DNA from: Hysterium pulicare CBS 123377
Taxonomy: Eukaryota; Ascomycota; Dothideomycetes; Hysteriales; Hysteriaceae
Direction: 5' to 3'
DNA: 36,994 nt
Assembly: GCA_000467715.1 (NCBI GenBank)
Contig: AJFK01000637.1
Coordinates: forward strand, 1 to 36,994
A program made the position numbers and the translations under genes. The first letter of the stretch is position 1. Every line of letters begins with the position of its first letter. The notes under the pieces are model-generated. The model worked only from the letters and a program-made list of their open reading frames with translations, was not told the origin of the DNA and ran no database searches. Of the stretch, positions 7,500 through 36,994 are shown piece by piece.

Positions 7500-8928
7500 G
7501 GAGGCGTTGCTTTTCCTCGCAGGCATTGTGGGTGGATATGTGGGAATAAATCTAACTCGATTGATTTACGGACGCCTGGTATCGCTGGGTTATGCGGGTA
7601 GATTTGTGTGTTTGGCGTTGCGAATGAGGCTCAAAGGTAGGTTGCGGACTAGGGCAGAGCACGCGTCTGTGAGTGCGGCGCGTAAAGTGGGTTTTTCGGT
7701 TCTCGGCTGCGCTTGCTCAAGCAACCTGACAACTGCATTTCATTTCATTATCCTTTTTTGCTATAATTAATCTAAGACGTAGCCAGATAAGAACGAATGA
7801 ATATGAGGAGTGAATTACTCGTTGCATTACATAAGTATCCCTATTCAACTCTTTCATCGCGAAGCCATCCAATCTTCTTCAGTCCACGATCAGACCGTTT
7901 GGAACACCATAATCATACCTTTCGATTCAAGATCTCCTCGGGGTCACAACGAGTATACCTACAGATGAAAGTCAAAGAGCCCTCATCTCTTACGAAGTCG
8001 TCATGTAGGCGATAACCTTGACCTTGTGTTCCATGCCCAGGGTCGTCCAGGTCATCCTGTTGAGCATCGTTACACGTTCGCGTTAACGCTACGTGACACT
8101 CCTGAGGGTGCACCAAAAAAAAGTCGAGTTCTAGGACGCTTCGATATGCAGATAATCCAAGATGTGCTTCGAAAAAGCAAAATTACCGCGGCACAGTCAG
8201 ATATGAGCTGTAAGAAGTAGGGTGCCTTACTTTCGCCTCTGCTATCGGCTCGCTATGTTCTGTACTGCTGGACTGGCCCTCTCAAGCTAGTCCTGAGTGT
8301 GGTTTGGGCGTAGCTGTCAGAACTGGAGGGTAACACTGCCCGATCTTTGTTGGTTCAACGTTTCTCGCGCGTTACTAGGTCGGACCCACGAAGCCACAAC
8401 CAAGCAGCGTATACTAAGGCGTCCTCGAAGATCAGAAGAAATCAGAAGAAGATCCTGATGTGCAATCTGCAGCCTGTCGCAGCCATGCAGTAGGCGTCCA
8501 TTGAACTCCAGCCGTCGTACGACTTCTACCAGTATGATATACAGCTGAGGTAGGCACTCCCAGCGCTGGAACCCATCTATCGCGTGGATGGCTCAGGTTG
8601 GAAAGCACGTTTGTACCCAGCCGCCGCCATCATCACCTCCATCCGTCTTTTCATTCAGACCTCTACTTCATTCGCCCTTTCCCTTTCCCTGTTCCTCTTT
8701 CCCCTTTCCCCTGTCCCTTTCCCTTTTCCCTTTCCCCTTTCCCCTTTCCCCTTTCCCTTGCTCTGACATGTTTGAGACCGTCTCGCTCCTTGGCACCGGC
8801 ACCGGCAAGCATCTCCCTACCACGTCTTGTTCTAAGGTGCCTTCGAGAGTGAAGTGCCTTTCAACCTTTATTTTGGTCTCTGCATTCATACACTCGTGTG
8901 CTTTGCAGGCATTGTTCCATACATCATC
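7500..8928. other. Long divergent intergenic region
   Basis: It separates the Dpb4-like gene from the arrestin-like gene. Between about 7887 and 8220 plus-strand frames read like broken protein, interrupted by stops and frame changes; I do not call a gene. A pyrimidine tract precedes the arrestin start. Confidence 0.4.
8673..8763 (+). repeat. CCCTTT-type pyrimidine tract
   Basis: About 90 bases are nearly all C and T, made of short CCCTTT/CCTTTCC units, ending 165 bases before the arrestin-like start codon. CT-rich boxes are common just upstream of transcription starts in filamentous fungi, so it may serve as the core promoter of that gene. A CTTTGCAG acceptor-like site at about 8907 could end a 5' UTR intron. 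Confidence 0.75.
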
Positions 8929-10479
8929 ATGCGGTCTTCTTCGCCGTCCCTCCGCGTCGTTGTCGATGATGCCCAACAGAGGACGTATGCTTCGGGCGAC
9001 CAGGTGAAGGGTAGAGTCATCCTAGAACTTCACAGGCAAGAGCAGATCAAGTCTTTGAAACTGAACTTCGTGGGGACATGCATCACCAAGGCCAAGAGAC
9101 CTTGTTTTGTGGAAGGGAACCCTGGCGGTGCCTCCGAATCGTCGACGAGAGAATACAGCGATCGAACATTCCTGTTCAACTTCGAGAGAATCCTCCTCAC
9201 TAAACTTGCTATTGGTTCCAATCTGTATTCGTGGTCTTTCGAATTCACATTCCCAGAACATACGCAGACTCGCCACTCTCGCTGGTTTCAGCCACGTAAA
9301 TACATGAAGGACTCCCATTCTTTACCGCCTTCATTTGATATCCACACCGATGAGCCGGGAGGCGAGGCCATCATCGCATATCGTGTCGAGGCAAAACTCA
9401 TCCGCTGCCGAAAGGGCAGCAATAAGGCTTCTCAGACGCTGTCATACTATCCAACGTCACGAAATCCCCCAGTGGAGCCCAGAATTTCTACTCGAAGTTT
9501 CGGCGATCGTGCTTTGAGATCCTCAAAGCCAAAATCAGAGAAGCGCACCCTAGCTCAGAAGCTTCTCCAAATGATGACTCGGAAATCTTCCCACCCTACT
9601 CCCAGCATACGTCTTGAACCGATACTATACTATCCAGAAGCGGTAGCACCAGGGCAAAGGATTCCACTCTCTTTATCTCTCCGCCGTCAGCCTACAGACA
9701 TGGACAACCAGGAATGTACTGTGGACAGTCTGTGCGTAGTGATATCAACCCTCACCCGTTTCGTCTGCAGCAAAACACTTTCTCATCCTCCCGATGTGGT
9801 TGTTAAGCACGTCAATTGCATCTCGCGAGGAGATATCAATCTCGAAATGCCATTCGATACTCCCACTGAGCTCACCCATGATTTTTGCCTAAGAGATGAT
9901 GCGGAGTGCATTCCGACATTCAATAGTTATAACATCTCGCGAAAGTACACCCTTACGATACGCATCGGTCTGAAATGCCAGGGCCAGGACTATCATATCA
10001 CTTCCACTGTTCCCCTGGTGATCTTACCTCGCAGCTATCTTCCATCCGAGCTACAACAAGGAGAGCTCGATGAATTGGTAGTTGATCCTCTTCCACTTTA
10101 CGCTCCACCGGCGCCAGAATACACAGAGTCGATCATGTCAGTGTCTCCACCTGCAACCCTATTGTCAACCGTCTTTTCAGAGGATCCTGGCTCAGAATCG
10201 TTGATGTCAACATCTCCTCCTTCAACTGTGCTATCCTCCCCGCTTTCAGAGGACCTGCAATCCGATATTTATACCTTCGACTCTGAGCCATCGCTACTGT
10301 TCACGCCCACCGCGATAACCGGCTCGGAACTGAACTCTGCGGTTCAAGATGGTGAAGGGTCGTTATCATCTACAGCATTGGCTCAGAGAAGGACTATGCC
10401 CTCAAGAAGACACATCAGGATCGAGGATACGGATATGAGGGATATATCGCAACACGTCATCCGGGATGTCTTGAGTTGA
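8929..10479 (+). CDS. Arrestin-like (ART family) adaptor
   Basis: One open frame of 516 aa from the ATG at 8929. I prefer it over the longer frame because the arrestin fold starts right after it (SLRVVVDDAQQRTYASGDQV, then KGRVILEL). Arrestin-N covers roughly residues 5-165, including the WSFEFTFPEH motif and the turn leading to IIAYRVEAKLIR. Arrestin-C covers roughly 210-370. The tail is Ser/Thr/Pro-rich and disordered. It carries an LPLY motif at residues 388-391 and a nearby APEY, close to the L/PPxY motifs that fungal arrestin-related adaptors use to recruit Rsp5-type ubiquitin ligases. By family, such proteins direct ubiquitination and endocytosis of plasma-membrane transporters or act in pH sensing; the cargo is unknown. 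No introns are needed, unlike most neighbours. Confidence 0.82.
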   Translation: MRSSSPSLRVVVDDAQQRTYASGDQVKGRVILELHRQEQIKSLKLNFVGTCITKAKRPCFVEGNPGGASESSTREYSDRTFLFNFERILLTKLAIGSNLYSWSFEFTFPEHTQTRHSRWFQPRKYMKDSHSLPPSFDIHTDEPGGEAIIAYRVEAKLIRCRKGSNKASQTLSYYPTSRNPPVEPRISTRSFGDRALRSSKPKSEKRTLAQKLLQMMTRKSSHPTPSIRLEPILYYPEAVAPGQRIPLSLSLRRQPTDMDNQECTVDSLCVVISTLTRFVCSKTLSHPPDVVVKHVNCISRGDINLEMPFDTPTELTHDFCLRDDAECIPTFNSYNISRKYTLTIRIGLKCQGQDYHITSTVPLVILPRSYLPSELQQGELDELVVDPLPLYAPPAPEYTESIMSVSPPATLLSTVFSEDPGSESLMSTSPPSTVLSSPLSEDLQSDIYTFDSEPSLLFTPTAITGSELNSAVQDGEGSLSSTALAQRRTMPSRRHIRIEDTDMRDISQHVIRDVLS

Positions 10480-13330: not shown

Positions 13331-16300
13331 TCACCTACCACTAGGCCGTCGTTGTGTGAAACTCCTCCTGATACTCTCGCCCCATACAGAGTTGTCAAGG
13401 ACCTCCAAAACATCTTGTGCGCTGACACTACTGTTGGCCCTGCTGCGCTCCCCACCTGGGTTTGGTTCTGCTTCGAGAGGGCTTGGCGGTCTGCTTATTG
13501 CTCTGGCAAACTGCCAGTCTCTACTGCCATCTGCAGGAGCAATGTATGGTGAAGCCTGTGGAGAGACGGCTCTTGTTGGAGACTGTGATGGCGTATGTTG
13601 AATAGAGTTTGCTCGACTCCTCAATGCCATGTCCGGCGGTGGTGACGGTTGTCGAATATCGGTAGCAGTAGTACGGAATGCCGAGTTGAGAGGCGATAGG
13701 TCGACAGGTGAGTGGAGCGGGCTAACATCTTGTGCTCGTCGCGCATTCGTTATGTCTTCATCATCAACGTAGATCTCCGGTACTGTGAACTGCGGCACTG
13801 CTGTCATGCGCCCTGAACTCTTGTGGTCCATGACGCGCCTGAATCGGCGAGCCCAGAATAGTGTGTCGAAGAATCCCACTACGACATTTCGTCGGACTGC
13901 TTCGTCGACACGCTGCAGCCGTGCTCTGCGACGAAGGAATTCTTCTAGCCTATATTCAAATGTCAGTTCATGTCGGCACGCAGACAAGAAAAATGGTTTA
14001 CATACCTCAAGCTCTTATTGTCGTTGATGACTTTGTAATGAGCGAGGATCATGAGAAGGGAATTGAATGAAATGCCACGATCGGGATCGCTTGACACTAG
14101 GACTTCTTCGTAGAACGTATTCATGCGCGCTCTTCTGCGTCGAATCTCGACAACCGGTAGTTCGGCTAAACGTCGATTCAACTTGGCGAGGTCGATCTCA
14201 GGGGCTGGTTCATGTCCTTGGACTGGAAGTTCCGAGAGGCGTCTGGACACACTGCAATCCTCAATGAGTCTCCGGACAGAGAAATCACCGTCGTAGATTC
14301 TCATCTCGAACACACCCGAGAGTTCCTGTGCCGAGATTAGCTTTTGCAATACTTTTGAACTAATTAGAACACTTACGCCAAGCAGTCTAGGGAAGGCTTC
14401 CTTTGATATATAGCCTGAACCGTTGGGATCGAACTCAGCCCAGGCTTGCTTGAATCGACGAATCTCCTCCCTACTGATAACAGACAGCCCGCTGCTTCTT
14501 TGATACACGTAGCTGAAGCTCTCGTAAATGAGCGACACAAACAAGTTGACGAAGATGTACATGCTTAGGATATTCCAGGATATGAACAGAGCTCGTGCCC
14601 AATCTGAGCTTCCGCAATCTCCATCGAAATACCGTTCACCCACCGTACACAATGGCGGCGTTATGGTAGCAAAGTCTTTCATGATCTGGTTCCAACCCTC
14701 TCCAGTGCTCGTTCTGAAGAGTAGAATTAGAGCTTTGGGTACATCTCTGAAATTGAGATTCCCACTCTCGCTTCCGTTGAATCTCGTGAGACCAAATGTT
14801 TGGGTGAGGGCGATAGCATAGACGAGGAACAGGACGAACCAAGTGGCAAGTAGATTCGCAATTGTCGGCAGACTTGCTGCTGCCGTTTTGAACAGCTGAT
14901 CAAGCTGGTTGTTCCGAGGGATGAGTAGGAGAGCAATGGAAACCAGGCATAGCTTGTGAAGCTGCATATAGACCCGCTCTGAAAAATTCGTAAGGAGTAA
15001 GATCGAGGTGACAAACGTTCCAGACACGGCAAATATTGAGTAAACGTCCCACGAACTCTTTCGGAAACGATGCCACGTCAAACCGACGATACGAATGACC
15101 ACGTTGGCAATGTAGAGAAAAGTGAGGAAGAGGAAAATATAATCTGAATGGTTAGCAGGCAAGCATTGCTAAGTGAAGTATAATGAAGTCTCACCTCTTG
15201 CTCGGTCCCATCCAAAATAGCCTGGATACCATTCCAGACATAGGAGAATGAGATGTAAGATCAGCATTCCTGTGATGAACCGCTGCCAACGTCCTGTCTT
15301 CCGGACAGCTCGACGATAGCACCATTCTTCCCAACTTTCCCTCTTCTTGGTAGATGATGGTCTCTTTGAAGGTGACACTTGCCGGAGCAGCTTCCTTAAT
15401 TCGAGCCAAGACCGCTGATCCGTAGTAAGAAAAGCGACACCGGTTTGCTCTGTATAGTTTCGCATGAAGACAGAAACGAATAGAGTCAACACGAAAACCG
15501 CTCCGAGCAAATTGAACATGACAAAGAAAATAGCATTGCCCTGTTGTGCAAACGGTTGCGGCTGAGTGAAGACTCCAGTGATACTCTGTGCTGCCCATTG
15601 GACGTCAATCCATCCTTCTTGGGAAACAATCTGGAAGAGAATGAAGAGTGAATCGCCGAAGTTGTCAAAATCGAAGTAAGGATTGGAGGCTTGACGGGGA
15701 GCTAAGACAGCCCAATTGTAGGGTGTGCTATTGTATTCATTGACACAATCTAGAAGGTTGAAAATTGCAGAGGTGCCATCGTTACAGTTTTGCATCCTAC
15801 CATTGAACAGGTTCAAACCATATATGGCAAATGGAATGAGCAAGCTCAAAGAGACGAATGCAGCCTGGGTTTTGTGTTAGCTTAATCTGAGAGCACATGA
15901 TCTGCAAAACTTACGGAAACAACTTTCCATCCAGCTCGGAAAATGAGAGAATGGAAGTGATCCCGAGCACTGTCACTAACATTGAGGAGTCGCAGTGCCC
16001 TTAGAGCCTTGAATGCACCGACCGTTCGAGTGACTTGCCCTTCATTCAACAAAGACGTCACAACGTTGATCCAAAGTGTGATGAGCACCACGCCGTCAAT
16101 GAAACCCCAAGAGCCTCGAAAATAAGCATTTGGAGTCCAGAAAAATCCATCCGCGATGACCTTGATGATCGCTTCGACTGTGAACAGGATGGCGAATCCC
16201 ATGTCGGTGAAAACGAACCAGTTTTTGACGCTGAACGTATGCGTTAAGAAGTAGTTTCTTTGATACAGCGGAGTGGTAATGCAAGCCAAAAGGACCATGG

Positions 16301-19300
16301 CAATGATCGCAGCATATATGAAGGCCGAAAACGCATACCAAACGGGAACAGAGGGCGCTACACCCTCCATGCGATCCCCGCCACGACCAGGGCCTACTAT
16401 ACGTTGGCAGAGTTTACGGATCGGATTATGGGGTCGGAAAATGAAGAGGGACACGTTGTAATTCGGATGCTTGCGAAGATAGTCCCTTTGAGCTTTCTTG
16501 CGTCGTTCCGTAGCGCTCACCACCTCCTTAGCCATTTGTCTCGGATCCAAGTCTTCGTATGCTCGTGTAAACTCTAGAGGCGAATAGAATGGATTTGGGT
16601 CGCGGTAGCTAATTTTGCGGAGAAGACGGGTCCACACGGCTGAAAAGAATCCTGCATTGGTAGTTGTAGTAGGAGCAGAACGAAGTACAGGTTGCGCTTC
16701 CTCATGAGTTGGACTCGTCCCAAGGTCACCAGGCTCATCGAGGAAATCTCGGACAACCGCATCCTTTAGCAACATCTCGGCTGCAGCTGAGCCATAATCT
16801 AATGGATCTTTGCGTCGTCCCGTGGCTTGACCAAGTTTAAAAATAGCGGAAAGAGACAGGTTTCTATAGTCATGAGTATGAAGCGCGTGTAAGCAAAATT
16901 TGATGACCTTACCCGTAAGATGATTCCATGCCATGTTCTTTCTTCTGAAGAAATGCCTTTACTTGTTGAAGACGTTTTGCATCCTCCGAAACGTCGAAAT
17001 TTTCCTGAATTACAGCAATAAACATATTTAGGACAATGACTAGACAACGATTAGTCTTGAGCAACTTTGCGGCATCTTTGGCGGACTTACAGTTGGCGAA
17101 TATGAACCACAGAATACAGAACGCAGCTCCAATCCAGGCGGTATTGAACTCATCCTCATAGCTAGTAATATTGTACATGATTGCCGTCCAATTCTCGCTG
17201 GAGAGGATTTGATACATCCCTAGGAAGGAGTTATAGATCGTAAAGAAGGTCACCTCGATCGGGTTTTGGTTGTTGTCTTGTTTAGGTATTTCGCCGCGAA
17301 AAATTTGGGCAGCAAATATCGCGGCTAGGAAAGTGAGGAGGAACACGAAAAGAATGAGGTTGAGTAGACCGCTAACATTACCCAGCACAATCATCTACAA
17401 AACAGTCAGCCATCAGTGCGTATTTAAGAATTCAGCTGATACCCACAATGAGATCGCGGGTTACGGGTACGGCTAAAACCACACGATAGATTCGGAGAAT
17501 TTGAAATATTGTTAACCAAGCGTAAGGTCTTCCACCATGAGCGTTTTTGATCGCGGGTATTTGTATGACGGTAGTGATGATAGCGAGACCTAGGTCCACC
17601 AGATTTCGCTTTCCTCGGAAGAAATGCCGCCAGTCTACCGCGAACCGAATAATGATCTCCACGAGCAAGATCAGGGTGACACCAGTCTCTGAGATGTTGA
17701 TAAAATATTCTCTGTTTGAGCTCATCGATGCACTCCTCAATGACTGGCACACCAAACCGTAGGCGATCACAACGATCCAGAACCAGGATGTCTTCTCGTA
17801 AAGTCGCTTCAAGGTGCTCACTCGACGCTTCCGCGGAGTATTCGTTTCCTCCTCCATCATGGGTTCGCTCTCTTCTCCAGTGAACGCGCTTGCTTTACTC
17901 TCTTCCCGGATGACTTGAAAAGAAGATGTGATCACAGCAATGAGCAAGTTGATAAGCCAAAGACTCATGATAACAATGGCAGATGCGAAGAACAGCGCTC
18001 CCGCAAGATAGTCACTGTCCGCCACCATATACAGCAAGTCGGAATAGGTGTTCGAGGACATTATGACGAAGACTAATTCAAGCGATTGGAATATATTGTC
18101 GAAGCTCTGGGTCCCGTTATGTGGATTGCCGGCTTCAATGCACATAGACCCTTTGGGACACAGAAAACCTTTGTGAGTCTCAGATCCATAGTCGTTGGTG
18201 GCCTTGATGAACGGCCTTGGATGCCCATCGTTGTCCAGCCACCCACCGCACCACTGATTAGTATTAGTGTAATTTTGTATGTGGTCAGGATCGATCCAGA
18301 CACAATTGCGTCTAAAACTAGATTTAAAGCTCTGTACACCGATAATGGCGAAGAGAAGCCAGAAGAAGCTGATCAGGAACGCAACATTAACTAGGAGCGG
18401 AGCAGCTTTTTTCAGGCTTCGTAAAATGACCTAACGAAACCCATTAGTCACGAATACCAGACAGATGAAAAAATCTACTTACCGATGTACCACTCGTCAG
18501 TAGAAGAAGTCTGAGAATGCGTAGGCAACTGAGCATTCGAAAAACGTATGCGTGTTTACTTGACTCGACACCAAAAACACCAAGAAGAAATGCTATCCAG
18601 AAAGACACGACAGCGAGAAAATCCAATCGATTAAAAGAATGTCGTAGGTAAGCTCTGTGAGCAAGTCGGACACGCTGTTGTTGCCGAGAATGCCCGGGCT
18701 GGTCCGGGTCAACCGGGGCAGTCGTAAAACTCCGAATGATAGAGGGTTGTTGAGTATCGAAGGTCGAACCGACCTTGATGGAGGATTGACGTTGTGGGCC
18801 AAAGAGTGCGCGACTTTTGCTCAGAACCGCTTGCGTTAGACCGACTTGCCGATTAATCGTGCTATATTCGATTGGATTAATAACGAAACCGGATACTATG
18901 GTCCTGATCACAATTTCAATACTATAAATGATGAATAGACCTAAAAGGGCGTAGTCTATCCAACTTGATCCCCATTTGCTGGATCGGTGAACCACATTAA
19001 CGTCACGGCTGGCGTCGACGGCCAAGAGAACAGTTTGAATAACGATAAGAAGGAGCAATAGTGGTTCGGTAACTGGGTGTACAAGAAGATCGCAGAGTTT
19101 TAATCGTAATTTGTTGTCTGGAGAAAAGATGCCCAGTGACTTTCCACGTAGCGGATTCGGTTGAGGTTGCCAGGGAAGACTTGGCCTTCTTCTTTCTAGT
19201 GGGGATTCCGGTTTCTCAATGGGCGAGTTAGGGTCGGAAGGGCCATCATGTAGATACGCAGGCAGTGCGGGAAACGATGGCGGCTCTTGAAGCCTCGCAT

Positions 19301-20159
19301 GTTTCAAAGAAGACTTTCTTCGAAGCGTTCTCTCAGCAATTTCGGGCTCGTTACTGATATTGACGACTCGTTGAGACACATTCCGCATGATAGTACCTGC
19401 CCGAGCCAATAATGGAGACTCGGCAGTTGAAGGTGAAAGTGACCTCTTCCTGGAGCCTGCCCGTCGAAGTCCTGAGTTGCCGGTTTCTGCATTGTGTAGG
19501 TCGTCCCCTAGTCTCGAGACTGGAGAAGTTGCGTCTGGCGTTAAGAAACGAACGCTTTGAAAACTTGATCGATCCTGTTGACCTAACGGTGTGGTGGGTG
19601 TTGCTCCACTGATGGGCTGGAGATGCCTTTCGTCTGTTAACCGCGCCGTATCCTCGTAGACGGGAGAGAAGTAACCACGCTCTTCAGATTCCTGCCTTGA
19701 AGGATGCGGGTCACTATCGTTCCTGCCACTTGAGGGTGGTGTTTCTATCGGGGGGGAATGTGACGGTTCTCCCTGGAAGCTGAGGCCCGCAAATCCACCG
19801 ATGGCAGCTTGAAATGCGCCTCCATCCTCCAAGGGCGAGTAACCTCCATCTTCCTCATGCGCTGTCCCTCCTTGCCCATGAGGAAAGGATGTGTTGATGT
19901 GAGGTCGGGCAGCAGTTCGTGTCGGACTTGGTGATGCTTCCGCTATTGGCGCATAACGAGAATTCCAAGATCCCCTCGCTGTTATTGATTCCGGACGTCT
20001 GAGTAGATTTCGGCCTCTATCGCTCAACGTTCTCCGATGCTGCGCCGCTTCTGTCGTGGGAGTGTCATCGTCGTCGTCTGGCGGGCGATTCAAGTCCTGT
20101 AAAGGTATCGATTGAGGAGCTGGAGGGCTTCTGCGGTTATATTGATCCTGGGAGGCCAT
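13331..20159 (-). CDS. cch1: Cch1-like four-repeat calcium channel
   Basis: Nine exons: 20159-18483, 18430-17447, 17394-17091, 17039-16913, 16863-15915, 15864-15195, 15143-14377, 14325-14006, 13949-13331. Joined length is 6417 nt, 2138 aa; introns are 49-56 nt. The N-terminal ~350 residues are Ser/Pro-rich and cytosolic. Four S1-S6 repeats follow; S4-type segments are clearest in I (LRILRLLLL), II (QILRIYRVVL) and III (ALRALRLLN), weaker in IV. P-loop filter positions read N686 (MSSNTY), E954 (LSSENW), E1430 (SQEGW), E1719 (TGEGW). After repeat IV comes an EF-hand-like loop DPNGSGYISKEA with Ala at the last ligand position. The Ser/Pro-rich tail ends at 13331. By family this is the plasma-membrane pore subunit that works with Mid1 in calcium uptake during stress and polarised growth. 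Two introns are in frame and stop-free. Confidence 0.93.
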
Positions 20160-21395: not shown

Positions 21396-24156
21396 ATGGT
21401 GTCTCGAAAGCGGGTGCGAGACGAGATGGAGGCGGAAGAACTGCCGCAGGAACCAAGCACCCTCGACAAACTGCGCAACATGTGGGAGTTCGCCAATCTC
21501 ATGCAATACATTTACTTGTTCGGAGATGCCGTCAAAATCAAGGACGACTTCGACGTGGAGGTACTGCATCACACTCGATGTCACCCAGGCATTCTTCTGG
21601 ATGACTGCGGCTCGTTGAAAAGGTGCTGACGACATAGCAGGCGCTAGAGACCGAATGCCTCAGACCACAGCCGTCCCAGAGACTCGCAGAGATCGGCTTG
21701 ACCCTCCTCAAGAATGTCTCCTCCCACAAAGGCTTGACGTGAGTGCACAACCCAAATGGCTTTGTGGAATCGATACTCATCCAACGCAGACCCGACATCT
21801 TCGATGAATACACGCGCCGGCAGTATGTTGCAAAGGCACCCCAGCGCAACCCTTTTGGCACCGAAGATACCCCCGGCAAGTTCGACGACTTCGACGTCTT
21901 TACAAAAATACGTGTATTACAGCAGCTATCAGTATGGACGCTACATAATCCGAATAACATCAGAGAGAAGATAGGTGCAACGGAAGCCGAGCAATTACAA
22001 TGGGTAAGAGATGTGTGCGACACCTGCCAACATCATACTGATCTATTTCCTTAGCGCATGGAACCCTTGAGTTGGGACATTGATGATCGTGCCTACTTCC
22101 TCTTTGATGATAATCGGCTCTATCGTCTCACCGAACCAACTCCACCTCCACCTCCCGCCAAGGCTAAGACGAAGGCGAAATCGAAAAAGTCCAGGGGTAC
22201 GCGAAGTAGCAAGAGGAGAAAGGTTTCTACACCCGAGCCTGAAGAAGATGAATACAATGAGGAGGAAGTCTCTCATATCGACAACCCGGAACTTGCAGAT
22301 AATGGACTCGGTGGTGCTAAGTGGGAATGCCTTTGTATCACATTGGAAGAATACCAGGCTTTCATGGACACGATTCGGAAATCTAGGGATCCCAATGAGA
22401 AAGAGTTATACCGACGTCTTGAGGAACAGGTTTTGCCGGCGGTTATCACGAATGCCGAGGAACAGCAACGTAAGGAAGCCAAGAAGTTGAAAGACCTAGA
22501 GGTCGCTCAGAAGCTTGCCAGCGCGAAGAGGTCTAGTAGGATTTCAGCAAAAATGGAGAAGCGGAAAGAGGATGAAGAGGCTGCTGAGGCGGAACGGAGA
22601 CGTCAAGCTGATTTAGCAATGGCCAAATCAGAACAGGAGAAGCAACGCAAGATGGAAGAGGTAAACATAGTCATTGCCGCCAAATGGGAACTCACTCTAA
22701 TCATTACTTAGGCACGGGAGTCTCGTATGATGACTCGTGAACAACGTCTCAAAGAGCGTGAGGTCAAGCGCATTCTTCACGAAGAAGAGCTCAAGAAGCT
22801 GCAAGAGAACAGCGAGAATCTTGAAACCAAGGAAGGTCGACTTTCTGAGCGACACCTCAAGGCTGAGATGAAGAGACGCCAGGAGGAACTGGAGAAACTT
22901 GCTGAGCAAGAGGACTGGGTGTTCGATTGTTCAGTCTGTGGCCTTCACGGAGAGAACCTTGTAAGATCATTCTGCCAGTTTGCAAAAACGGCGCTAATGT
23001 CCCACAGGATGATGGCTCTCATAGCATTCAATGCGAGAAGTGCAATGTATGGCAACATAGCAAATGCCACAACATCACTGTGGCTCAAGCAGAAAGAGAT
23101 GATTTCCACTTCGTATGCAAGGATTGCAAGCGACGTGCGGAAGAGGCTACGAAGCAGAAGCTTCCCCCCCTAAAGTTTCGTCTCACTTCCTCCTCACCAA
23201 AGACAGGCGAGTCAAGCGCACGTCCTTCTGAAAATGGGTTTGCAAATTCAAACGGCACTTCGCTGCCTCCAAATCCTTTCGCCCCCCGGAGGCTCGACTC
23301 GGTACAGATTCTTATGCCGCCAACCGCTCCTAACTCATCCCCACCCCGTCAACCTCAGTCTCTCATGAATGGACCGAGCCTTTCCCCGCGAGGTCAATCT
23401 GTCGGTCCACCCGGCATTCACAGGTCCGAAGCAGCATATGGAGTTTCTAGGAACGGTGTCAATGGGATGTCTCCTTCCACGAATCCACGCCCATATTCCT
23501 CTGGACAACCGGGCGGTATATCGATCGCCAATGGTTTCCCTACCTCATCACCACCTCAGTGGAATAGCCCTCGACTTCCTCCTCCAAGTGCCTTGAATAA
23601 TCATCAACTCCCCTATCCACAAGCCAACGGAAGTCCTTACGGAACTCAAAATTCGTTCATACCGCCCACACCTCACGATCCGTTTTCCAACAGCTTCAGC
23701 CGTCAAGGACCACCATCTGGAAGTCCCGCCCCTACCTACTATTCACCCGTAAAGCATTCCCCGGCTGCAACTCCCCAGCATTCAAATGGTATTCAAAACG
23801 GCAATGCATTCACACGTAGCCCAAGTGCTTCATTCCCGCCGTCCTCTGTCCAGCAGCCTTCATTCTCACCTATTAAGCAAAACTCGCCTCCTCTTCCGAT
23901 GTCGCCACCAGCCCCAATGCATCCTCATGTCGCTACCTCCCCAGCGCAAATCCTACCTCACCCAATGTCTGGTATATCGCCAGAGAAGCACGATGCTGCG
24001 AGGCCAACGTCTAGTCATAGCGTATCTGAGACGCCTATTTTACCACCTATCCGAAACCTCCCCCCAAACGCGAGTCCTCAGATCTTGAGCCCGCCGCTTA
24101 AGAAGATGACGCCTGAGAGGCCACGTTTTGATGGGTTTAACGGCCCTCCTTACTAA
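21396..24156 (+). CDS. DDT/WHIM-like and PHD-finger chromatin protein
   Basis: Six exons (21396-21560, 21641-21738, 21790-22003, 22055-22660, 22712-22960, 23008-24156) give 826 aa; introns are 80, 51, 51, 51 and 47 nt. Residues about 18-85 look like a DDT-type helical domain (LRNMWEFANLMQYIYLFGDA, then LAEIGLTLLKNVSSHKGLT). About 90-180 fit the WHIM region, with the WRMEPLSWDIDDRAYFLFDD signature followed by a basic NLS. A long charged coiled coil spans ~250-420. A complete C4HC3 PHD finger follows: C434/C437, C453/C456, H461/C464, C481/C484. The last 330 residues are Pro/Ser/Asn-rich and disordered. DDT/WHIM proteins bind ISWI-type remodellers and PHD fingers read histone tails, so a chromatin-remodelling reader (RSF1-like architecture) is inferred; histone specificity cannot be read. 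Confidence 0.87.
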
Positions 24157-27571: not shown

Positions 27572-29340
27572 ATGCCCGCAACGCGCATCACCATCGCTCT
27601 CAACGCGAAGCAATCTCAGAAAGCTCCTCTCCTCCTCCCTGCTTCGGCATCATACGATCCTTCGGCGACCAACTCAATTCGTTCGCTCGTTGTCAAAGCG
27701 GCACAGTCAAAGCTGCGGTTGAAGAAGACCAACAGGGTATTCGTTGCTGGAACCGGTCAAGAGCTTCTCACAGAAGCCGACTGGAAAGATGCGGTCGAGG
27801 ATGATGTCACGCTACTTGCATCTGCTGGAGAAGAATATGTTGGGTTGAGGAAAGAGTCCTCTAAACTTCATCGTAAGCTCCAAAATTGTTTAAGTAGTCC
27901 TTAAATGCGACTAACACATTATGCTCAGCGGATGCAAATCCAAACTGCACAATTACTATCTTGGCAGAAAAGGCTCCCGTAGACCAGCTCTCTGTTACCC
28001 AAGTCGAGACGACCGCTCGCACCCTGCCGGGAATTGTTCATGCTGTAGGTCAACCTGACTTGCACCCAGGCACGAAATTCCCCATCGGCGCCGTATTTGT
28101 GTCGCATAAATGGATACATCCGCCATTAATAGGAGGCGACATTGGCTGTGGCATGGCGTGGTACAAGACCAAGCTTTCTCGAGCTCACGTAGACGGTGAC
28201 AAAGGCAAGAAAGTCGCAGAGAAGCTGAGAGGTCTCGAGGGCCCTTGGCGTTTCCAGTCGGACCGCGAAAAATGGCTGCAGGATACTGAGGGGAGCTGTT
28301 CAGCAGGAGATCAGTGGGATAGTGCCTTGGGAACGATTGGAGCTGGAAATCACTTTGCGGAGATCCAAGTCGTCGAGTCTTCTTCAATGCCGGCTAACGA
28401 TGAACTCGGACTTCATGAAGATGATGTCATGCTTCTGGTCCACTCGGGATCAAGAGGATACGGTGGGAGTATTCTCAAAAGCTTCACCTCAGAGTCACAC
28501 ACAAGTCTCGAAGAGAACAGCGACAAGATGAAGGAATATATGAAGGAGCACGATCGAGCTTGTCGATGGGCACAGGCCAACCGAGATCTAATCGCTCTTC
28601 GCTTTCTGTCTTGTCTCGAGCCAGGTGAAGAAGCATGGCACTTAGGTCAAAATCCCGCAAATGCCGAACGCCTTGATAACAACGACATCATATCGTATGC
28701 CAAGGCACACATCCAAGAGCGAAAGGTCGTTGATATTTGGCATAACAATGTCGAACGGATAAATTGGCCACCATGTCCGCCAAACAGCTCTGAAATATCA
28801 CCGATAGATGAACAGACGTTAAGACTGTCTTCTGTGGATCTTGATGAGGATCAAGGCAACGGCAATTGTTTTTATATCCACCGTAAGGGTGCAGCTCCCA
28901 CATATAATCCCAGCACCAATTTACCACTCTCCATTCTTCCATTACCTGGCTCTCGCGGAACACCGACTATCATTTTACGACCTTTATTCACCGAAGCAAC
29001 TTCTTGGGGTTTCAAGAATGCGCTGTCGCTTGCACATGGAGCAGGAAGAAGCATGTCTCGGGCCAAAGCACTGTCATCACTAAGCCAAAAGTACAAAAAT
29101 CCAGGTGTGCTCCTTCAACCTAGTCCTGGGTCGCAGACGCAAGCTAGGAACAAGGGAGAGGATGTTCACGGCGGGACGTGGGTCATCTGTGACGAGAAAG
29201 ACCTTGTATGGGAGGAGGCTCCCGAAGCTTACAAAGACGTCTATGCTGTATGTGATGACCTTGTCCGTGAGGGCGTGGCCGAGGTGGTTGGCTGGTGCCG
29301 AGCCCGAGTGAGCTACAAGGTCAGGAATGATTTGCGATGA
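27572..29340 (+). CDS. RtcB-type RNA ligase homologue with N-terminal beta-grasp
   Basis: Two exons, 27572-27872 and 27929-29340, give 570 aa; the 56-nt intron has a CTAAC branch-like site and ends GCTCAG. Residues ~5-95 form a small beta-rich domain (ITIALNAK; RVFVAGTGQELLTEADW; VTLLASAGEEYVGL) that resembles doublecortin/CIDE-N type beta-grasp folds. The rest is RtcB. All active-site motifs known from Pyrococcus RtcB are visible: GGDIGCGM (Asp and Cys metal ligands), GAGNHFAEI (Asn, His, Glu), VHSGSRGYG (His), DIWHNN (His) and LAHGAGRSMSR (the His that takes GMP). HRKGAAP and LPGSRG match conserved RtcB loops. RtcB joins 2',3'-cyclic phosphate or 3'-phosphate RNA ends to 5'-OH ends with GTP and Mn2+. 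Ascomycetes normally splice tRNA with Trl1, so this enzyme is more likely in RNA repair; that is inference. Confidence 0.9.
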
Positions 29341-35566: not shown

Positions 35567-36994
35567 ATGGGTCCGAACATCAGCATTTCAGGTCTACCGG
35601 AAGAGCTCAGCATAAGGGTGGCATTTTATTTGAGCAGGCCTGACCTCTTGAGCCTTTCACTTGTCAGCAGGCAACTCTGCCGCGCTGCCCAAGATGTACT
35701 ATATACGACACCCGTATTGCCATTAAGACCTAAAGGGAACAAACTTGCAACACGACCAATTTCCCCAAAGGTAGTCTACCTTGTGAGAACCCTCTTACAA
35801 CGTCCAGATTTGGCACACAAGATCCAGAGGCTTGTACTCCCCCTGGATCTAGGGATTGACCGACCAGGTTACCGTGCAGCTCCGCCACGTGTGCAAATTG
35901 ATGAAGATACCAAAGCCCGAGGAGTCCAAGTCATACAAACGCTCCTCAAGCATCATTTTAAGGTAGACACATGGCTGAATGATATCAACTTGGGCTATCA
36001 AGCGGCATTTTGTGGTCTTCTTTTGCTTCTGGTGCCAAATTTAAGACATCTCTGGATCACACAGTATGGAAGAAGGTTTTCGATGCCATCAATATTCGAT
36101 GAGCTTTTCCGCCGATGCCTAACACAGAAGTCGGATATCCAACGAGTTCCTGGTCTCCAGCATGTCGAATCGTTAGCGGTTGAACTATGGAATCTCCCAG
36201 AACTTTTGCTTGCACTTCCGTCTATACGATCGTTGGGCATAGAAGGTGGCGGGCACGTACTCAATAGTACACTTGAGACGGGTGATTTCCCTAACCTGAC
36301 GGAGCTACATTTGATGTGTCCCGTAGAGAATCACGCCATTTCTCGGTTTCTTACGTATATTGAGCGCACACTACCACTTTTCAAGAACCTAAAAAAGATA
36401 GTTTTAGACCTGATCATTGTACCCGAGTCCTTTTCATTAGATGTGGTGCAGCTGAATATCCAAAGGCTGTTGGATGCTCTAGAACAAGTTCACTCGTCGC
36501 TGGAAATTCTGGAGATATCTCACGAATTCTTAGCGTGTACCCTCGACATGATTAGCTCACTTCAGATGCTCACCGGTCTACGTCACTTGATCACGCCCCA
36601 AATGGGTATACTCGCGGACGGTTACAAACTACCTCCTAATGAAAGTCTCCCTTCGTCGCTGGAGCTGTTGAGCATATCAGAGGCGGACGAAATCACTCTC
36701 GAGTGGTTGAACGACCTTCTGTCGCAGGTGACAGATTTACCCAAGCTCAGACGAATCGAGATCTTCTACTCCAAGAATTACTTCTCGGTGCCATGGTTCA
36801 GAGCGCTCAAAGAGTCCTTGCAAAGAGAGTTCGCGGAGGTCGGAATAGATGTTGTCATTTACTGTCCCCCAAAAATGGATAATCTGCACGCCGATTACGT
36901 TGTTCGCAACGGGGCTTGGAGCTGGTATCTGGAGCGTGAATCCTCCGAGGAAGATGAGAGTGAAGAAGAAGAGGAGGAGGAGGAGGAGGAGGAG
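35567..36994 (+). CDS. F-box/LRR-like protein, 3' end beyond window
   Basis: The frame is open from ATG 35567 through the last base, 476 codons without stop or visible intron, so the C-terminus lies outside. Residues ~4-45 are an F-box (ISISGLPEELSIRVAFYLSR, then LLSLSLVSRQLCRAAQDVLY), the Skp1-binding motif of SCF ubiquitin ligases. The rest has irregular leucine-rich segments (LVPNLRHLWI; VESLAVELWNLPELLLALP; FPNLTELHLM; LKKIVLDLIIV; LPKLRRIEIFY) typical of fungal F-box families, where they serve as the substrate-binding surface. A conserved end block (KNYFSVPWFRALKESLQREF) is shared with the decayed copy at 24837-25800. After an aromatic WSWYLE stretch the protein becomes Glu-rich, ending at the window edge in a (GAG)n run. 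The substrate is unknown. Confidence 0.85.
   Translation, partial: MGPNISISGLPEELSIRVAFYLSRPDLLSLSLVSRQLCRAAQDVLYTTPVLPLRPKGNKLATRPISPKVVYLVRTLLQRPDLAHKIQRLVLPLDLGIDRPGYRAAPPRVQIDEDTKARGVQVIQTLLKHHFKVDTWLNDINLGYQAAFCGLLLLLVPNLRHLWITQYGRRFSMPSIFDELFRRCLTQKSDIQRVPGLQHVESLAVELWNLPELLLALPSIRSLGIEGGGHVLNSTLETGDFPNLTELHLMCPVENHAISRFLTYIERTLPLFKNLKKIVLDLIIVPESFSLDVVQLNIQRLLDALEQVHSSLEILEISHEFLACTLDMISSLQMLTGLRHLITPQMGILADGYKLPPNESLPSSLELLSISEADEITLEWLNDLLSQVTDLPKLRRIEIFYSKNYFSVPWFRALKESLQREFAEVGIDVVIYCPPKMDNLHADYVVRNGAWSWYLERESSEEDESEEEEEEEEEEE
36971..36994 (+). repeat. GAG microsatellite coding poly-Glu
   Basis: Eight GAG codons preceded by three GAA codons, in frame with the F-box protein, running to the window edge. 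Confidence 0.95.

Follow-up and report, generated by a model that had tools for sequence, protein, structure and literature searches.

A predicted RNA ligase of the RtcB2 clade with an added N-terminal domain in the ascomycete Hysterium pulicare

Introduction

Why would an ascomycete carry an RtcB-type RNA ligase, and of which kind is it? In fungi, HAC1 splicing uses Trl1, which joins RNA with the same 2',3'-cyclic phosphate and 5'-hydroxyl ends as RtcB. Published reviews describe RtcB as absent from fungi or from most of them (PMC4090602, PMC13247085, PMC12699882), and PMC8668186 speaks only of 'some fungi' lacking it. Here we analysed a window, i.e. the whole 36,994-nt stretch of H. pulicare CBS 123377 DNA presented above, in which a first-pass annotation had recognised such a ligase preceded by an N-terminal extension.

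Results

Structure of the ligase gene

The window contains a single RtcB gene, on the + strand. It is predicted to start at ATG 27572, to end with the stop codon at 29338-29340 and to encode a 570-aa product, and the span 27572..29340 and protein length given at first pass were correct (splicing from GT at 27873 to AG at 27928). When the intron is retained, the frame ends after 110 aa, and the first in-frame ATG of exon 2 corresponds to residue 176, inside the catalytic GCGM motif; some upstream exon is therefore needed. ATG 27572 is the sole in-frame ATG in the open stretch ahead of the N-terminal domain. Residues 1-100 come from exon 1 and the entire ligase core from exon 2, so that the domain boundary approximately coincides with the intron (Table 1). 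The exon 1 frame ranked best of six for codon usage, which is mild support only because 176 of 986 open 300-nt windows reached the same score. Furthermore, the gene and the window differ little in GC content (0.505 and 0.495, respectively), which gives no sign of a recent arrival. As predicted, the exon-intron structure of the ligase gene is intact.

Table 1. Predicted features of the ligase gene (+ strand) and their alignment with other RtcB proteins
Feature	Coordinates	Strand	Remarks
Exon 1	27572..27872	+	N-terminal domain (residues 1-100) and one further base
Intron, 56 nt, GT...AG	27873..27928	+	Branch-like GACTAAC at 27909-27915; splicing joins the frames
Exon 2	27929..29340	+	Entire RtcB2-type ligase core, starting near residue 103, with the stop codon
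GGDIGCGM (starts at residue 169): D171, C174	28132..28155	+	Aligned with E. coli RtcB D75, C78
GAGNHFAEI (starts at residue 238): N241, H242	28339..28365	+	Aligned with E. coli RtcB N167, H168
VHSGSRGYG (starts at residue 271): H272, R276	28438..28464	+	Aligned with E. coli RtcB H185, R189
Fungal insertion, residues 332-355	28621..28692	+	Every column is a gap in 13 or more of the 15 other aligned RtcB rows
DIWHNN (starts at residue 369): H372, N373	28732..28749	+	Aligned with E. coli RtcB H281, N282
Fungal insertion, residues 381-410	28768..28857	+	Every column is a gap in 13 or more of the 15 other aligned RtcB rows
HGAGR (starts at residue 470): H470, R474	29035..29049	+	Aligned with E. coli RtcB H337, R341

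The ligase core retains the RtcB active site

The protein matched the Pfam RtcB model (PF01139) at 180.4 bits (E 9.5e-53, cut-off 27 bits), excluding chance. We aligned it with E. coli RtcB and bacterial RtcB2 proteins and observed that 14 of the 16 listed E. coli RtcB positions are identical, the fungal residues being D171, C174, N241, H242, H272, S273, R276, H372, N373, K420, H470, R474, R478 and K564. The other two, E206 and H280, differ, and both are variable in other rows too. We take D75, C78, N167, H168, H185, H281, H337 and R341 of E. coli RtcB to be metal and guanylylation residues, and the conservation of the aligned residues bears out the earlier claim that all RtcB metal and guanylation motifs are present. 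H470 would be the histidine expected to take GMP.

The core falls within the bacterial RtcB2 clade

The top NCBIfam models were those of PrfH-associated RtcB, PRK09588 (287.5 bits) and TIGR03073 (242.4 bits), matched by exon 2 from 27961; canonical E. coli RtcB scored 171.6 and 143.4 bits, respectively, against the same models. The fungal protein lies under both curated cut-offs (287.5 vs 407 bits for PRK09588, 242.4 vs 271.8 bits for TIGR03073), and all eight bacterial RtcB2 proteins scanned lie over them (435.5-642.8 and 354.4-617.8 bits, respectively).

Two trees, both built without animal RTCB or any row known to be archaeal and with most RtcB2 rows taken from a scan that used the fungal sequence and RtcB2 sequences as seeds, placed the fungal protein within the RtcB2 clade. 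In the first tree, which had 107 rows (the fungal protein, all 7 plasmid loci, 80 GTDB loci and 19 of 80 viral loci), this clade comprised 92 rows with an SH-aLRT of 100, and the fungal branch measured 1.63. The second tree had 57 rows, namely the fungal row, 38 hand-picked RtcB2 rows of plasmid, GTDB and viral origin, canonical E. coli RtcB, 4 viral rows and 13 further RtcB rows from eight genomes (duplicates dropped, one row cut to its last 620 residues); the clade comprised 39 rows with support of 100/99.8, and the fungal branch measured 1.53. No particular donor lineage emerged from the 57-row tree, where the fork concerned had support of 80/19.

Pairwise comparisons gave 183.8 bits to E. 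coli RtcB2 and 227.3 bits to the Thiocystis protein, and identity to six bacterial RtcB2 members was 35-40% (alignment A1). Nine RtcB sequences of the PDB matched at 61.1-68.5 bits (phmmer, with another database size and a slightly shorter query than in the RtcB2 comparison), presumably including human and archaeal RtcB at 67.1-68.5 bits. Animal and archaeal tRNA-splicing RTCB (HSPC117; P. horikoshii RtcB) belongs to the same family and shares the catalytic residues; however, these low phmmer scores against 183.8 bits to E. coli RtcB2 speak against it as the counterpart of the fungal protein, and no archease was found in the frames of the fungal genome read ignoring introns.

Of 57 plasmid records matched by tblastn, the first 29 contained RtcB-family loci of E. 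coli, Klebsiella and others at 28.9-37.5% identity; one locus, which we read as that of canonical E. coli RtcB, reached 24.9%. Among the 30 phage records listed of 335, one short record reached 32.0% and the other 29 ranged from 24.6 to 26.3%. A profile scan of viral contigs gave 250 relatives, of which 80 were kept; the best matched segments of these did not exceed 36% identity. No near relative was confirmed in viral contigs when exon 1 or exon 2 was queried alone.

Membership of the ligase core in the bacterial PrfH-coupled RtcB2 clade is well supported by these comparisons. The fungal protein resembles bacterial RtcB2 (E. coli RtcB2-PrfH; PRK09588/TIGR03073) in its compact core, active site and level of identity but differs in its intron, N-terminal domain, insertions, scores under the cut-offs and lack of a PrfH over the cut-off. 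Because both NCBIfam cut-offs were missed and no PrfH was found, we class the predicted protein as a derivative of the RtcB2 clade and not as a standard RtcB2. The family named at first pass, an RtcB-type ligase, stands; what it had missed is the bacterial PrfH-coupled type, to which both the search against RtcB and RtcB2 families and the trees point.

prfH linkage in bacterial relatives

A scan of GTDB contigs kept 80 of at least 555 confirmed relatives, and prfH lies directly downstream of the ligase gene in 63 of the 80. Five of the 17 GTDB loci without an adjacent prfH have less than 500 bases of downstream sequence. All three annotated loci that were fetched (E. coli, Skermanella and Methylosinus) carry prfH beside the ligase gene. 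Of 12 bacterial genomes that carry RtcB2 without prfH beside it, several being MAGs that may be incomplete, 11 lack a PrfH over the cut-off.

The available part of one study proposes that the RtcB-PrfH pair is a repair system against ribosome-jamming nucleases (PMC6514570). According to the accessible part of another, E. coli RtcB2-PrfH guards against colicin E3, a 16S rRNA cutter, and E. coli RtcB2 expressed alone is strongly protective, yet this enzyme, which acts on bacterial 16S rRNA, did not protect against two colicins that cut tRNA (PMC9223846). Since 11 of the 12 genomes show no PrfH over the cut-off and E. coli RtcB2 protects alone, RtcB2 can occur and act without PrfH.

We also observed RtcB2 without an adjacent prfH in three Verrucomicrobia and one other bacterium (L036, L042, L058 and L071) and in three Myxococcaceae (L059, L069 and L090). 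In both groups, no PrfH exceeded the cut-off genome-wide, and they form PrfH-free RtcB2 branches.

The N-terminal domain

About 100 residues, encoded by their own exon together with the start codon, precede the RtcB fold, and the extra residues noticed at first pass are thus present, on exon 1. This domain had no Pfam match at E≤10, no NCBIfam match at E≤1, no second copy in its own genome and no match (E≤10) among 6466 ORFs from the bacterial and viral-contig loci L009-L175. In the PDB, it gave one chance-level match (E 1.8) and none that is credible.

A likeness to doublecortin-type domains had been suggested for this stretch. A search of the whole genome with Pfam DCX (PF03607) gave no match, and the control gave none either. 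We then scored exon 1 with an improvised profile of four DCX domains and with another of ubiquitin and NEDD8; its scores were reached by 381 of 2000 and 627 of 2000 shuffles, respectively. Neither the doublecortin nor the ubiquitin likeness is supported at the sequence level, the former not by the Pfam and PDB results either. Hydrophobic moments indicated a strand-like start followed by a helix-like stretch within about residues 31-46. By these moments and by eye, the order of strand and helix could fit a beta-grasp fold such as that of doublecortin, but has no sequence support; it is compatible with such a fold and is not evidence for one.

RNA-ligation genes elsewhere in the genome

The 37.2-Mb genome contains one detectable RtcB gene. 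It also encodes Trl1, on contig C244, with ligase and CPD domains in a single 850-aa frame, part of which carries KENG and kinase P-loop-like motifs assigned by eye. Trl1 acts on the same RNA ends as the predicted RtcB-type ligase but is an unrelated enzyme with heal-and-seal chemistry, encoded by a separate gene. Its presence, anticipated at first pass, should make RtcB dispensable for the splicing of tRNA or HAC1. Tpt1 is present as well. A genome of 37.2 Mb with intron-bearing genes, Trl1 and Tpt1 is in keeping with a filamentous fungus.

No archease was found in the 37.2-Mb genome, with frames read ignoring introns. Likewise, no frame exceeded the PrfH cut-off of 166.65 bits; two matched the PrfH model below it, at 77.2 and 70.8 bits, and were read by eye as mtRF1-like and C12orf65-like, i.e. 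as mitochondrial-type release factors. Because introns were ignored, an intron-broken PrfH or archease could be missed.

Discussion

A candidate repair ligase derived from bacterial RtcB2

We consider it fairly probable that the gene encodes a ligase derived from bacterial RtcB2 that was captured by a fungus long ago, acquired a new N-terminal domain and is dedicated to rRNA or tRNA repair beside Trl1. An RtcB2 type points to a bacterial origin and to a function in mending ribosomal or transfer RNA that nucleases have cut. A dedicated repair role is the most likely one because Trl1 and Tpt1 already serve tRNA and, by known biology, HAC1 splicing. The RNA-repair role proposed at first pass thus remains the most likely reading, given Trl1 in the same genome and the RtcB2 type. 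Ligase activity, substrate, direction of transfer and role of the N-terminal domain are what we infer from the sequence. Substrate carry-over from RtcB2 is a weak argument, since the scores lie under both cut-offs and the branch is long.

The proposed enzyme would be an RNA 3'-phosphate (or 2',3'-cyclic phosphate)/5'-hydroxyl ligase derived from bacterial PrfH-coupled RtcB2. Transfer would presumably have run from bacteria to a fungus, where the captured ligase would have gained several loop insertions and, on a separate exon, an N-terminal domain of about 100 residues. Judging from the conserved residues, GMP would be loaded on H470, a cyclic phosphate would be opened by the ligase itself, and GMP would be passed to the 3'-phosphate, after which attack by the 5'-hydroxyl would join the ends. 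The substrates would be rRNA or tRNA with breaks made by ribonucleases. The N-terminal domain may give targeting, and may do the recruiting thought to be the task of PrfH in bacteria. A more specific version, in which the domain replaces PrfH in a fungal counter-attack system and brings the ligase to cytosolic ribosomes or tRNAs that ribotoxins or anticodon nucleases have cut, appears unlikely; if true, fungi would have, in addition to Trl1, a second way of repairing RNA that leaves no scar.

Alternative readings of the locus bear either on the N-terminal domain or on the chemistry and substrate of the core. We deem it very unlikely that exon 1 was mispredicted and that the gene encodes a plain RtcB2. 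Exon 1 has no homologue in the libraries and loci searched, the gene model is a prediction from sequence, and codon support is modest; against this, exon 2 offers no ATG before the GCGM motif, and the splice signals and reading frame agree with the two-exon model. A diverged RtcB with another end chemistry seems more doubtful still. Its long branch and several insertions would suit such a change, for which Myxococcus RtcB3, reportedly published as an enzyme of 5'-phosphate capping, offers an example, yet the fungal protein groups with RtcB2 and keeps 14 of 16 RtcB positions, the other two being variable.

Rather improbable, if less so than the two readings above, is a mitochondrial RtcB2, in which the N-terminus would serve import, the bacterial-type mitochondrial rRNA would be repaired and a mitochondrial release factor would replace PrfH. 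The first 52 residues contain 9 K/R against 1 D/E, both PrfH-model matches under the cut-off read by eye as mitochondrial-type release factors, and a diplonemid RtcB that belongs to the E. coli RtcB1 clade is predicted in print to be mitochondrial (available part of PMC12699882). However, there is no amphipathic helix (the best 18-mer helical moment within the first 42 residues is 0.27) and residues 5-13 are strongly strand-like (0.83 vs 0.19), so that support for a mitochondrial presequence is weak. A role alongside Trl1 as a reserve or stress ligase in the splicing of tRNA or HAC1 is, in our view, similarly improbable. Yeast Trl1 can be replaced by E. coli RtcB, as the accessible part of PMC9223846 has it, but the H. 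pulicare genome encodes Trl1 and Tpt1, archease was not found in it, and the sequence is far nearer to RtcB2 than to the RtcB proteins of the PDB.

Distribution and significance

If Trl1 is indeed accompanied by an intact enzyme of the RtcB2 type, two different RNA-ligation chemistries coexist in one fungal cell, and fungal repair of ribosomes or tRNAs after nuclease cutting becomes testable. Proteins of other filamentous fungi are entered in protein databases as RtcB-like or release-factor-H-coupled, so the gene is probably not unique. In the portions of the open PMC literature covered, no paper was found on a fungal RtcB2-type ligase or on its fusion to this N-terminal domain; the available part of PMC6777427 has no fungal RtcB in it, and PMC10316542 matched through primer names only. 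As far as the open PMC literature shows, fungal RtcB2-type ligases are functionally unexplored.

Neighbouring frames in the window

Ten neighbouring frames were scanned, seven of which had Pfam matches (an arrestin-like protein, four ion-channel pieces, a PHD finger and an F-box) and three had none. The arrestin-like frame lies at 8854-10479 (+ strand), the PHD-finger frame at 22927-24156 (+ strand) and the F-box frame at 35567-36994 (+ strand), the last running past the end of the window. On the - strand, four consecutive Ion_trans frames occupy 13963-20159; they are probably one intron-containing gene for a four-repeat voltage-gated cation channel, read by eye as a calcium channel.
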